Origin: Verrucomicrobiota bacterium
Lineage (GTDB): Bacteria; Verrucomicrobiota; Verrucomicrobiia; Opitutales; UBA953
Direction: 5' to 3'
Assembly (NCBI GenBank): GCA_026397965.1
Contig: JAPLTU010000036.1
Span: 62,001 to 126,000 of the forward strand
Length of the DNA stretch: 64,000 bases
In this document: positions 4,163 to 51,593 of the stretch, piece after piece
Layout of the letters: the number at the start of each line of letters is the position of its first letter
Position numbering within the stretch: the first letter of the stretch is position 1
The notes under the pieces: model-generated
The model's database searches: none
What the model saw: the letters and a program-made list of their open reading frames with translations, nothing else
What the model was told of the DNA's origin: nothing
Made by a program: the position numbers and the translations under genes

Positions 4163-6727
4163 ATGGTTAATCCCCGCACCCCTCCCATGATCTTCTCCCC
4201 ATGTCGCCTCATCTTAGTTCTCGCGGGCATCACCACGTTATTGGTCGCGGAGCCCCAACTCAACTTGCCGACGCGCGCTCCCGGTGAGGATGTCAACAGC
4301 GCCTCCGTGCGAAATCGGCCCGGGCTTTCCGCGAGTGCGAATTTACTATTCAATGGTTGGGGCATTTCACCGGCGGGGACCCATGTGGCCAGCGGCGATA
4401 TGGGATTAAAGATGGTCATCGCTCCGGATAAGGAAGCGGTCCTGACGGTCTGTGCCGGCTATAACAAGGTCGGCATTTCAATCGTCAGCCTCGACGCCAA
4501 GCACGACCCAAAATTTATCCCTTTAAAGGAAACTTTTAATGGTCTGGCGTTTAGCCCAGACGGGAAGAAGTTCTATGTTAGCGGTGGCGATTCGGGCGTC
4601 ATCTACGTCTTCGCTTACCAGCATGGTGAAGCTACGCTGGAACGTGAGGTCAAACCTGATCCGCTGGCCAAGAATATGTTCTTGGCTGGGATCGCCGTGC
4701 ATCCGCGCACCGGCATTATTTATGTCTGCAACGAAGGGAATCACGAAATCTGGCAACTGAAGCCGGAATCGCTCCTGTTGGATAAAACGGTGAGCGTCGG
4801 TCAGCATCCGCATTCTTGTGTGTTCGGCGGCGATGGGATTCACCTTTACGTTAGCAATTGGGGCAGTCGGAGCGTAAGTGCCGTTGACACCAAAAAATTC
4901 CAACGCGTGCGGGATCTTTCCGTTGGCCTGCGTCCTAATGACATGGTCGTTGCGGCAGACGGCCGGCTGTTCGTGGCCTGCTCCGGAGATAATTCCGTCC
5001 ATGTCATCACAACGGGTAAACTGGAGAAGGCGGGCGAGGCAGCTGGGCCGACGCGTCGTCTTTGGGAAGGTAGTCGCGAAGTAATCGCCACTTCTTTGTA
5101 CCCGCAATCTCCGGAAGGAAGCACGCCCTGCGGCGTGGCACTTTCGCCAGATGGCCGGACGCTTTTCGTGGTCAACGCCGACAACAACGCAGTCATGGTC
5201 GTCGATGTCTCCGGCAATCTCACCGAGGAAGCCCAAGACCATGGCGAAAAAATCGCCCTCGTGAATGGGTTCATCCCCACGGGCTGGTACCCGACTTCCG
5301 TCGCCGTCTCGCCCGATAATCAGTTTCTTTTGGTTTCTAACGGGAAAGGGCTGACGTCGCGCGCAAGTTACCCCGCCCTTAGTCCTAAGCCTAACAAATT
5401 GCACAACGGCATTTTATTCGACCATCCGGGAAAAACTTTCGAGGGCTCGGTTTCTTTCATCGCCAAGCCTGATACGAAACAGATGGCGACTTATACTGAG
5501 CAGGTTCGAAAGAACTCACCTTACCATCCCGACCAATATTTCCGGGCTCCGCTGGCCAGCGAGTCGGCGATCCCTGCCAAGGTCGGCGACCCGTGCCCGA
5601 TCAAACACGTCCTCTATATCATCAAGGAAAACCGGACGTACGACCAGGTGATGAGCGATATGACCGATGCGAAAGGAAAGCCAATCGGCAACGGCGACAC
5701 CCGCTTACTGATGTACGGCGAGAAGGTCACGCCGAACCATCACCAATTAGCCCGCGATTACGTCCTCTTCGATAATCTTTATTGTAACAGCGAGGTCAGC
5801 GTCGATGGCCATAGCTGGACGGATGCGGCCATGGCGACGGATTTTAACCAACGCTCTTGGATCATGTCTTACTCGGGCCACGGCAAACTTTTCGGGAATG
5901 ATGAGATGGAGACTCCGGCCAATGGTTACCTCTGGGATCTCTGCCGTCGTCACGGCGTCAGTTATCGCAATTACGGAGAGGGCGCGCAGCGGGTGCCGTC
6001 CGAAAATCGCGGTAACTGGAAAGCCTTAGGCAAGGCCGGACGCGATATGGAGTTGGTGAAGAATTGGATCGGCGACTTGCATGCCGCTGAAAAAAATAAC
6101 GACCTGCCGCAGTTCACCATCATGTCGCTGGGGGAAGATCATACTAAAGGAACTACGCTCGGCGCCAATACTCCTGAAGCATGCGTCGGTAGCAATGACC
6201 TCGCCTTGGGTCGCATCGTCGAAGCCGCCAGTCGTAGTAAATTCTGGAAAGAGATGGCGATTTTCATCATCGAAGATGATACCCAGAACGGCCCTGACCA
6301 TGTCGATGCCCACCGCACCGTTGGTTTTGTCATTAGCCCCTATTGTAAGAGGGGGGTCGTAGACAGTACGCTCTATACCCAGGCAGGGATGATCCGCACG
6401 ATTGAGCTCATCTTGGGTCTGCCTCCGTTGACTCAATACGATGCCGCGGCCACGCCGATGTTTAATGCGTTCCAAAAAACGCCGACGTTGACCGGCTATA
6501 CGCCGCTACTCCCGCAGATTGATTTAGAGGCCACGAACACCAAGAAATCCGCTTTCTGGTTCGAGTCCGGCCAGATGAATTTTGCGGTCTACGATTTGGC
6601 GCCCGAAGATGAACTGAACCGTATTCTTTGGGCACAAGCCCGCCCCGGAGAGGCTTACCCTGCCGCCATCCATCGCGCGATCTTCACGCAACCCGTCCAG
6701 GCGACGCCGAGCCCCTCGGCCCGCTAA
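4163..6727 (+). CDS. Secreted YncE-like beta-propeller / phosphoesterase fusion
   Basis: 854 residues. A signal peptide covers about residues 9-29 (hydrophobic LILVLAGITTLLVA), so the ATG at 4187 is an alternative start. Residues about 90-400 are a YncE-like beta-propeller, with repeated phrases such as FSPDGKKFYV, LSPDGRTLFVV and VSPDNQFLLV. From about residue 480 comes a phosphoesterase/alkaline-phosphatase superfamily domain: YIIKENRTYDQV near 485, a DGHSW motif near 548 and DDTQNGPDHVDAHRT near 700, which carry the usual Asp/His metal ligands. The family is the 'bifunctional YncE/alkaline phosphatase family protein'. It likely acts in the periplasm; the substrate is unknown. Its stop is 1 nt from the end of the convergent TPR gene. 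Confidence 0.85.
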   Translation: MVNPRTPPMIFSPCRLILVLAGITTLLVAEPQLNLPTRAPGEDVNSASVRNRPGLSASANLLFNGWGISPAGTHVASGDMGLKMVIAPDKEAVLTVCAGYNKVGISIVSLDAKHDPKFIPLKETFNGLAFSPDGKKFYVSGGDSGVIYVFAYQHGEATLEREVKPDPLAKNMFLAGIAVHPRTGIIYVCNEGNHEIWQLKPESLLLDKTVSVGQHPHSCVFGGDGIHLYVSNWGSRSVSAVDTKKFQRVRDLSVGLRPNDMVVAADGRLFVACSGDNSVHVITTGKLEKAGEAAGPTRRLWEGSREVIATSLYPQSPEGSTPCGVALSPDGRTLFVVNADNNAVMVVDVSGNLTEEAQDHGEKIALVNGFIPTGWYPTSVAVSPDNQFLLVSNGKGLTSRASYPALSPKPNKLHNGILFDHPGKTFEGSVSFIAKPDTKQMATYTEQVRKNSPYHPDQYFRAPLASESAIPAKVGDPCPIKHVLYIIKENRTYDQVMSDMTDAKGKPIGNGDTRLLMYGEKVTPNHHQLARDYVLFDNLYCNSEVSVDGHSWTDAAMATDFNQRSWIMSYSGHGKLFGNDEMETPANGYLWDLCRRHGVSYRNYGEGAQRVPSENRGNWKALGKAGRDMELVKNWIGDLHAAEKNNDLPQFTIMSLGEDHTKGTTLGANTPEACVGSNDLALGRIVEAASRSKFWKEMAIFIIEDDTQNGPDHVDAHRTVGFVISPYCKRGVVDSTLYTQAGMIRTIELILGLPPLTQYDAAATPMFNAFQKTPTLTGYTPLLPQIDLEATNTKKSAFWFESGQMNFAVYDLAPEDELNRILWAQARPGEAYPAAIHRAIFTQPVQATPSPSAR

Positions 6728-39449: not shown

Positions 39450-39476
39450 GTAGGGGCAGCACCGCGTGCTGCCCTA
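39450..39476. repeat. Single-hairpin GTAGGG REP
   Basis: Begins GTAGGG and forms a perfect 9 bp stem, GGGCAGCAC (39454-39462) with GTGCTGCCC (39466-39474), around a CGC loop. A near-identical unit occurs at 51011-51037, and variants with paired changes (GGACAGCAC/GTGCTGTCC) at 41057-41081 and 50862-50887. Confidence 0.75.
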
Positions 39477-39627
39477 GTTGCCTCGGGTAGGGACGCGCCC
39501 TACCGTCAGGTCGCATAAAAACGAGATGGGTGACAGGTGACGGCCCCTAGGAAATCAGCCCCTCGGGCGTCGGCATTTCGGCCATCAGCAATCAGGATCC
39601 TGCGGCCAGCTCCCGAGCTGCCTCCCT

Positions 39628-39652
39628 CCGGCCAACTGGCCAACTAATCAAC
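39628..39652. repeat. Octamer array (ACTGRYCA-type)
   Basis: Short run of 8 bp units (CTGGCCAA, CTAATCAA) following CCGGCCAA. Same unit family as in regions B, D and E. Confidence 0.6.
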
Positions 39653-39760
39653 GAGTGACGCATCTTTCTGATCAACCGAGCCTCTGTTCATCTGGCTTTT
39701 CCTCCCTTGCCTGCTGGTCAACTTGTCAACGGGCCTCTAACTTGCCTCCCTGTCGCCCTC

Positions 39761-39793
39761 CGGCCAACTGGCCCACGGGTCAACGGGTCAACT
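39761..39793. repeat. Octamer array (ACTGRYCA-type)
   Basis: Four 8 bp-spaced units: GGCCAACT, GGCCCACG, GGTCAACG, GGTCAACT. It ends 8 bp before the xseA stop. Confidence 0.6.
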
Positions 39794-39800
39794 CGCATTC

Positions 39801-40985: not shown

Positions 40986-41145
40986 GTCGGCAGATTCGGG
41001 GATTAGCGCCTCGAGGGCAAGAGGTCTCGGGGGTGGGGCAGCATTGTTTGACTCGGGTAGGGACAGCACCACGTGCTGTCCTCTGCATCTGTTTCGCCCC
41101 ATGTCCCCATGTCCCCGTGTCACCTCGAAGGCTTTGCCTTCGCTG

Positions 41146-41261
41146 GTAGGGGCGCGACTGCGTCGCGTCCGTTCGCAGCGCATGGGTCGTTGAGTCGGGT
41201 CAAACTTGTCGGAGTTCATTATATCGGTCCGCCCACGGACGCCACGCAGTGGCGCCCCTAC
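41146..41261 (+). repeat. 116 bp inverted REP pair (BIME-like), copy 1
   Basis: Bounded by GTAGGGGCGC and GCGCCCCTAC. The left arm contains stem CGCGAC-TGC-GTCGCG, the right arm CGCCAC-TGC-GTGGCG. The arms are inverted repeats that differ only where each arm's own stem keeps pairing. The centre is about 55 bp of unique sequence. Three other copies are at 42730-42842, 45342-45457 (reversed) and 51149-51264. Confidence 0.85.
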
Positions 41262-41331
41262 CAGCTACCTCCCATGCCAACTGGCCCACCGGTCAACTGT
41301 TCAACTAACGCTGCCTCTTGTGTATCTCCCT

Positions 41332-41371
41332 CCGGCCACTGGCCAACTGGCCAACCGATCAACTGTTCAAC
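41332..41371. repeat. Octamer array (ACTGRYCA-type)
   Basis: Five units in 8 bp register: ACTGGCCA, ACTGGCCA, ACCGATCA, ACTGTTCA, AC. The inner hexamer TGGCCA is a palindrome. Confidence 0.7.
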
Positions 41372-41440
41372 TTGCCTCCCCGCATCCCTTGCCTGCGGGT
41401 CAACTTGTCAACCGGCCAGCTAGTTATCGAGTTATCGCCT

Positions 41441-42582: not shown

Positions 42583-42635
42583 GTAGGGCTGACCGCCTCG
42601 GTCAGCCGCGGTTGAGCGAGGGCGCTCAACCCTAC
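42583..42635. repeat. Two-hairpin REP unit
   Basis: GTAGGG and CCCTAC ends enclose stem GGCTGACC-GCCTC-style GGTCAGCC and stem GGTTGAGC ... GCTCAACC back to back. Related units with altered but still paired stems are at about 45473-45527 and 51047-51101. Confidence 0.75.
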
Positions 42636-42729: not shown

Positions 42730-42842
42730 GTAGGGGCGCGACTGCGTCGCGTCCGTTCGCAGGGCGATCATTGATGAGTGGGCAAACTGTCAGAGCCAAT
42801 GACTTCTGTCCGCCTACGGACGCCACGCAGTGGCGCCCCTAC
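42730..42842 (+). repeat. Inverted REP pair (BIME-like), copy 2, 113 bp
   Basis: Same two arms as copy 1 (CGCGAC/GTCGCG and CGCCAC/GTGGCG stems) but the central 50 bp has diverged strongly, showing that the arms are the conserved part. Confidence 0.82.
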
Positions 42843-45148: not shown

Positions 45149-45224
45149 CTAAAAGAGGAATCAGAAGATAAAGAAGGTCGGGAGGCAAGTTAGAGGCTCG
45201 GAGGATCAGAAAGAGGCGTCACTC

Positions 45225-45257
45225 GTTGATTAGTTGATCGGTGGGCCAGTTGGCCGG
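45225..45257. repeat. Octamer array, reverse orientation
   Basis: Units GTTGATTA, GTTGATCG, GTGGGCCA, GTTGGCCG in 8 bp register, the reverse complement of the ACTGRYCA family. Confidence 0.7.
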
Positions 45258-45273
45258 AGAGATGCAGAGGCAA

Positions 45274-45325
45274 GTTGAACAGTTGATCGGTTGGCCAGTT
45301 GACCAGTGGACCCGTGGGTCAGTTG
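45274..45325. repeat. Octamer array, reverse orientation
   Basis: Longest run seen: GTTGAACA, GTTGATCG, GTTGGCCA, GTTGACCA, GTGGACCC, GTGGGTCA, GTTG, over six consecutive octamers. Confidence 0.75.
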
Positions 45326-45341
45326 GAATGGGAGACAGCAG

Positions 45342-45457
45342 GTAGGGGCGCCACTGCGTGGCGTCCGTGGGCGGCCCGATCTAATGAGCTCTGACAAGCT
45401 TGACCCGACTCATCGACCCTTGCGTTGCGAACGGACGCGACGCAGTCGCGCCCCTAC
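45342..45457 (-). repeat. 116 bp inverted REP pair (BIME-like), copy 3, reversed
   Basis: Reverse complement of copies 1 and 4, with a central region almost identical to copy 4. The left arm here carries CGCCAC/GTGGCG and the right arm CGCGAC/GTCGCG. Confidence 0.85.
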
Positions 45458-50811: not shown

Positions 50812-51148
50812 GGCCGTAATTTAAGGGTTAATTACCAAAAAGCAAATCCCCGGCTCTCTAGGTAGGGAGAGCACCACGTGCTGTCCTAGTTGCGTCTTCT
50901 GCCTCGGATAGGGACATCTCTCCGACGCGTCCTTGTATCTGGTATCTGTCTCGCCCCATGCCCCCTTGCCCCCATGCCCCCGTGTCACCTCGAAGGCTTT
51001 GCCTTCGCTGGTAGGGGCAGCACCGCGTGCTGCCCTAGTTGCCTCGGGTAGGGTTGTGCACCCTCGCTCAACCGCGACTGACCGGAGGCGGTCAGCCCAC
51101 CCTCATCCCCCAACCAATCACCCGGCTCACGTTCTCCCTTGGCCTCGG

Positions 51149-51264
51149 GTAGGGGCGCGACTGCGTCGCGTCCGTTCGCAACGCAAGGGTCGATGAGTCG
51201 GGTCAAGCTTGTCCGAGCCCATTATATCGGTCCGCCCACGGACGCCACGCAGTGGCGCCCCTAC
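51149..51264 (+). repeat. 116 bp inverted REP pair (BIME-like), copy 4
   Basis: Same structure as copy 1, with arms identical in sequence and only a handful of central differences. The similarity continues through the octamer array to 51428. Confidence 0.85.
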
Positions 51265-51334
51265 CAGCTACCTCCCATGCCCACTGGCCCACGGGTCAAC
51301 TGTTCAACTAACGCTGCCTCTTGTGTATCTCCCT

Positions 51335-51374
51335 CCGGCCACTGGCCAACTGGCCAACCGATCAACTGTTCAAC
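51335..51374. repeat. Octamer array (ACTGRYCA-type)
   Basis: Identical to the array at 41332-41371: ACTGGCCA, ACTGGCCA, ACCGATCA, ACTGTTCA, AC. Confidence 0.7.
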
Positions 51375-51507
51375 TTGCCTCCCCGCATCCCTTGCCTGCT
51401 GGTCAACTTGTCAACCGGCCAGCTAGTTGTTCCCTTCTCTCACTTTTGCACGCGGCTCCGCCGCAGTTGCACCTTTGCACTGTCTTCCCTGATCCCTTCG
51501 CCTCCCT

Positions 51508-51547
51508 CCGGCCAACTGGCCACTGGCCCACCAATCAACTAATCAAC
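51508..51547. repeat. Octamer array (ACTGRYCA-type), imperfect register
   Basis: CCGGCCAACTGGCCACTGG then CCCACCAATCAACTAATCAAC; the register slips by two bases in the middle (a lost AC). Confidence 0.6.
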
Positions 51548-51593
51548 TAACACCGCCTCTTACCTCCTCCCTCGCGGCGCTTCCGCCGCGCGC

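Follow-up and report, generated by a model that had tools for sequence, protein, structure and literature searches.

The four repeat pairs found in the window, i.e., the whole stretch of 64,000 nucleotides analysed here from a freshwater Opitutae bacterium, are best explained as REPINs: inverted GTAG-tagged REP hairpins separated by a linker of about 62 bp, non-autonomous, and copied via single-stranded DNA by a RAYT transposase of the HUH/Y1 type, a reading to which we assign a probability of about 0.93. They represent a new family, in a freshwater Opitutae genus, of a known type of element. Characterised TnpA_REP proteins recognise single-stranded REP DNA, use the GTAG tetranucleotide and cleave at CT or CA beside the hairpin (PMC8266576). 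By analogy, once the region is exposed as single strands, the RAYT would work on the GTAG strand of each arm, would recognise GTAG together with each arm hairpin as single-stranded DNA, and would cleave and re-join it, the doublet being the presumed unit copied (cf. PMC3116915). The present genome probably inherited its copies and then lost the cognate RAYT, unless the assembly missed it.

Anatomy and distribution of the doublets

The first-pass annotation, which had described the four copies as inverted REP pairs, was right about their identity and exact about all four positions, including that of the reversed copy; the REPs are GTAG-tagged and arranged as REPINs (Table 1). Each arm is 26 bp long (one arm being GTAGGGGCGCGACTGCGTCGCGTCCG and the other, on the opposite strand, GTAGGGGCGCCACTGCGTGGCGTCCG) and reads from its outer end GTAG-GGGCGCGAC-TGC-GTCGCGTCC, where TGC is a 3-nt loop. 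Within the 9-bp stem, positions 7 and 23 form a G.T pair when the GTAG strand is read and hence A.C on the opposite strand. As had been noticed, the two arms are inverted repeats of each other except for two bases: the only differences between the arm types are at arm positions 11 and 19, two bases that form a pair within the stem, C and G in the second type replacing the G and C of the first. A G precedes GTAG in 59 of 60 ends, so that the conserved end is really GGTAGGGG. The linker is also conserved and its centre is common to most doublets; copy 2, as annotated, keeps its arms intact, and its centre is the most diverged of the four. All four copies are situated between Pfam-supported genes, copy 1 lying between xseA and a hydroxyisobutyrate dehydrogenase gene; the genome-wide screen of locations used mechanical ORFs only. 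Degenerate intergenic repeats (CAACTGGCCAACTGGTCAACTGTTCAACT) adjoin REPs at window positions 39620-39800, 41280-41400, 45180-45330 and 51270-51560.

Table 1. REPINs, their arms and REPs of other classes in the window
Feature	Position	Strand	Remarks
Single REP, third class (GTAGGGGCAGCACC)	39450..39477	+	RAYT of the class in own genome, C66:9475-9903
Single REP, fourth class (GTAGGGACAGCACC)	41057..41084	+	RAYTs of the class in sister genomes
REPIN copy 1	41146..41261	+	116 bp; left arm G/C type, right arm C/G type
Copy 1 REP arm	41146..41171	+	GTAG + 9-bp stem + 3-nt loop
Copy 1 REP arm	41236..41261	-	C/G type
REPIN, second class (GTAGGGCTGACC / GTAGGGTTGAGC)	42583..42635	.	Truncated RAYT of the class in own genome, C54:16831
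REPIN copy 2	42730..42842	+	113 bp; diverged linker
Copy 2 REP arm	42730..42755	+	G/C type
Copy 2 REP arm	42817..42842	-	C/G type
REPIN copy 3 (reversed)	45342..45457	-	116 bp
Copy 3 REP arm	45342..45367	+	C/G type
Copy 3 REP arm	45432..45457	-	G/C type
Single REP, third class	51011..51038	+	
REPIN copy 4	51149..51264	+	116 bp
Copy 4 REP arm	51149..51174	+	G/C type
Copy 4 REP arm	51239..51264	-	C/G type

The assembly from which the window derives (2.18 Mb, 96.5% complete) holds 74 matches to the arm with at most 3 mismatches and none to the reversed control pattern; the arm matches are therefore not due to chance. Besides solo arms, 30 inverted doublets of 109-122 bp were assembled from sequence fetched from this genome, i.e., inverted REPs at fixed spacing and in many copies, each REP made of GTAG and a palindrome, as is characteristic of REPINs. 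The arm is carried by 18 of 24 other members of the same genus and by none of 13 genomes of other genera in the order (0/13), and its confinement to the genus holds for that sample of 24 members and 13 other genera. Among the matches listed, nearly all named records bearing the arm are from Opitutae or Verrucomicrobia, many of them lake MAGs by name, and a few record titles carry other names. The phage records searched gave no match to the repeats.

RAYT transposases and REP classes of the genus

A cognate transposase was located by searching the fetched loci with the short RAYT proteins of the genus. In the sister genome G009 (PowLak16_MAG4, locus L130), a RAYT gene at 453-896, encoding 147 aa, has the same doublet on either side (280-394 and 897-1011). 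The same doublet-RAYT-doublet arrangement occurs in G022, the RAYT of which is 78% identical to that of G009, so that a RAYT flanked by its own REPs is found in both genomes; in G057, a broken RAYT has the same doublet on one side and another REP class on the other. The HUH motif (H70 and H72) and Tyr123, the catalytic residues expected of a RAYT, are unchanged in all of the nine RAYTs compared within the genus, and the G009 protein aligns with the solved TnpA_REP structure 4er8 (E 5e-7). Its sole family match is NCBIfam REP_Tyr_transpos (NF047646; E 1.6e-19), at 70.2 bits below a cut-off of 80, and it also scores under the Pfam Y1_Tnp cut-off. The NCBIfam cut-off governs how a protein is named and is not itself a property of its biology; the catalytic residues and the REP flanks are both present. 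The locus itself (L130:1-1140) is a REPIN array in which an 80-bp leader of the RAYT gene is duplicated between doublets and one doublet directly follows a copy of the RAYT gene start.

No RAYT of the four-copy class was found in the window's own assembly, the RAYTs of which belong to two other classes only, and the window copies are thus orphans there. Within the genus, RAYTs of the four-copy class were seen in only 3 of 55 genomes and the repeats in many more. Most of these genomes are fragmented MAGs, and RAYT genes lying between repeats are likely to drop from bins. In one genome with contig names of long-read style (G020, 85% complete), 28 arms were counted and the RAYT search gave nothing at E 1e-10. 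Two Pfam Y1_Tnp matches in the own assembly were considered as partners and rejected: a long one on contig C64, which has unrelated terminal repeats of its own, and a short one on C54, which belongs to another REP class. The longer gene (C64:475-1419, L031/L049; 314 aa) is flanked by inverted repeats with TAGGGTCAGACCGCTTCCGA that are unrelated to the GTAG REPs, and resembles the TIRYTs, i.e., TIR-flanked relatives of RAYTs (PMC3733652).

Each RAYT clade in the genus is flanked by its own REP class, in which the foot GTAGGG is invariant and the stem varies from class to class. When 14 class labels, read by eye and with the broken RAYT of G057 kept as its own label, are placed on a maximum-likelihood tree of 36 RAYTs, they need 13 changes, which is the minimum, against 27.4 for shuffled labels. 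Agreement between RAYT clade and REP class has also been reported for pseudomonads and stenotrophomonads (PMC3686654). REPs of other classes lie in the window as well (Table 1).

Several observations concern the sites that these classes occupy. A REPIN of the four-copy class at C47:2888-3002 of the own genome has at the same intergenic site in G041 (L330, ~4463-4720) a GTAGGGCTGACC/GTAGGGTTGAGC REPIN, and both begin at an identical CAATGGGTAGGG foot, as if classes replaced one another at fixed docking sites. At ~1909-1935 of L312 in G009, orthologous to window position 41146, lies a chimeric REP arm (GTAGGGGCGCGACTGCGTGCTGCCC), the first half of which is that of the four-copy class and the second half that of the GCAGCACC class; at this site the own genome has copy 1 beside a flank of the kind that stands before the GCAGCACC class at other places. 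Finally, a motif of the approximate form TGYMTYGRG stands directly before GTAG, outside the repeat proper, in REPs of all classes (e.g., TGCCTTGG, TGCATCGG and GTCTCGAG) and is possibly a shared target or docking sequence.

Turnover at orthologous sites

The sites of the window copies were compared with the orthologous sites of three relatives (G041, G009 and G024) that are ~92-95% identical over the region. G041 has copies 1 and 3 and lacks copies 2 and 4, whereas G009 and G024 both have copies 2 and 3 and lack copy 1. At the site of copy 4, the G041 sequence reads through except for nine terminal bases (GCCCCTACC), and in G009 and G024 the position of copy 4 falls inside a larger missing stretch. 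Other doublets of the own genome are likewise absent from, or replaced in, G041, and between species of ~93% identity the turnover of intergenic regions is wholesale. The copies are polymorphic at orthologous sites and so move or turn over; what is observed is turnover, with no clean single insertion or excision among the orthologous sites compared. The empty sites of copies 2 and 4 in G041 were considered as excision scars and rejected, as the deletion takes 9-15 bp outside the element and, for copy 4, a 3-bp microhomology explains the site equally well; these empty sites may be ordinary deletions. Target-site duplications were not found (observed mean 0.6 versus 0.82 for shuffled sequence), as expected for HUH transposases. 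A C|T cleavage site on the upstream side of GTAG, known from other RAYT systems, was also sought; the search returned only a diffuse excess at -6/-5, which belongs to a longer motif of the flank. Between C54:18842-20356 and L386 of G041, one REPIN has flanks that are 99.6% identical on both sides, other flanks being mostly ~88-96% identical, which is a case of either recent interspecies exchange or MAG cross-contamination.

Part of this picture would suit inert debris that has multiplied through nothing but segmental duplication and inter-repeat recombination and has long been without transposition. Besides the wholesale intergenic turnover and the lack of a cognate RAYT in the own assembly, copies 1 and 4 have 161 of 164 bp of right flank in common and copy 3 has part of the same flank, so that these copies are not independent of one another. 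Such an origin is nevertheless improbable, given that most of the 30 doublets of the own genome lie in unrelated flanks and that sister species retain intact RAYTs with nearly identical doublets.

Hairpin conservation, heterotypic arms and related systems

The first-pass annotation had taken the paired base differences in the window as covariation pointing to selection on hairpins in DNA or RNA. In the four copies the G/C versus C/G difference is a single state inherited by all, i.e., one event and not four, and selection on the hairpins is supported by evidence from outside the window instead. Among 60 distinct GTAGGG 26-mers lying within 220 bp of a RAYT and collected with no pairing filter, 5.9 of 7 inner pairs are formed on average, against 3.8 ± 0.15 (maximum 4.3 in 500) when the 3′ halves are re-dealt, a contrast that is inflated by kinship among the sequences, although most stem positions differ between classes. 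Compensated stem changes are also found in the four-copy family itself, where C-G becomes T-A at pair 8-22 and G.T becomes A-T or G-C at pair 7-23, as read in partner arms that did not serve as search seeds. Unpaired changes at the same positions, which had been named as evidence against the idea, do exist in a small minority of arms genome-wide (GG, CC or CA at 11-19) and so partly count against it. Mispairs on the GTAG strand are G.T in 13 cases and A.C in 4, small numbers that favour the GTAG strand as the folded one. More generally, what looks like covariation between arms within one element family can go back to a single inherited event and needs a cross-family test.

Compensated stems, the tolerance of G.U on one strand and the mRNA-stability role proposed for REPs of other bacteria (PMC3733652) would also fit a structured RNA, or an element of transcript ends such as a terminator, a stabiliser of mRNA or a processing site, in which RNA hairpins are selected. 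The repeats match no Rfam family, no T-run terminator signal follows the hairpins (mean 1.6 T in 8), and the stem class tracks the RAYT clade, not the neighbouring genes. As to gene ends, the copies lie between divergent, tandem and convergent genes with no marked bias, as judged from a crude ORF screen. An RNA element is therefore very unlikely; the lack of an Rfam match and of T-runs, together with a single-stranded DNA transposase set between the same doublets in sister genomes, points to the DNA hairpin among the two possibilities first proposed. A MITE with terminal inverted repeats on which a DDE transposase acts, which inverted ends, a conserved length of ~115 bp and many copies might suggest, can be set aside almost entirely, since target-site duplications were not found, each end forms a hairpin of its own on a GTAG foot, and the gene lying between two such elements is a Y1/HUH RAYT.

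The doublets are predominantly heterotypic. Counting unique doublets in which both arms are of the G/C or C/G type, 70 of 84 are mixed; a second census found 9 homotypic pairs among 75 class-A doublets, against 37.5 ± 4.2 upon random re-pairing (0 of 2000 shuffles as low), and over all classes 258 of 269 doublets carry two different stems, counts that overstate independence, as copies descend from one another. At least 8 classes are each heterotypic with both stems compensated, and a few (GATGCGAT) are homotypic. The arm types are also found swapped relative to the linker (41 versus 10), and the mixed state hence survives exchange or inversion. In DNA folding, the long hairpin reaches -36.1 kcal/mol with mixed arms and -46.0 in a hypothetical symmetric version, a cost of ~10, whereas the two-hairpin form stays at -20.4 kcal/mol with mixed arms, the long form still being the minimum. 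The paired differences thus keep the hairpin of each arm and weaken arm-to-arm pairing; folding and census together identify the arm-local hairpins as the conserved feature and show heterotypy to shift the balance without reversing it. We suggest, tentatively and with the odds somewhat against it, that heterotypic arms are selected for, the element thereby avoiding one long hairpin and forming two that the RAYT can read. The long hairpin would be open to cruciform or SbcCD-type cleavage and would be unreadable to the RAYT. Heterodimers have been noted before and were said to have no obvious explanation (PMC3733652); if true, such selection would account for their excess.

Among known systems, the REPINs and RAYTs of Pseudomonas fluorescens SBW25 (PMC3116915) are alike in their inverted REP doublets of ~70-110 bp with conserved ends and a linker of set length, in the RAYT near the same REPs and in the compensatory changes noted. 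Those doublets are symmetric hairpins, whereas the arms described here usually differ, their stems are separately compensated and the host is of a different phylum. GTAG-tagged REP families, including that of Opitutus terrae in the same phylum (PMC3733652), share the terminal GTAG, a short stem with its loop, dimers arranged head-to-head, heterodimers whose stems differ and several classes per genome; the linker of the O. terrae dimers named there is 1-2 bp, in contrast to the conserved ~62 bp found here. Group 3 TnpA_REP of Stenotrophomonas maltophilia (PMC8266576) is alike in REP anatomy only, with a short stem (8 bp, against 9 bp in the present family), a 3-nt loop and a GTAG foot, and likewise has a short RAYT; the stem of the present family has one G.T wobble. 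The BIMEs of E. coli likewise combine two non-identical REPs (y and z) in inverted orientation, but the AA-GC bulge that is required in REPs of E. coli (PMC8266576) is absent from the Opitutae stems.

These elements add a REPIN-RAYT family in a little-studied phylum, where more than 10 stem classes co-exist in one genus, each tied to a RAYT clade. They constitute a natural data set on the co-evolution of a single-stranded DNA transposase with its hairpin and on the preference for heterodimers.
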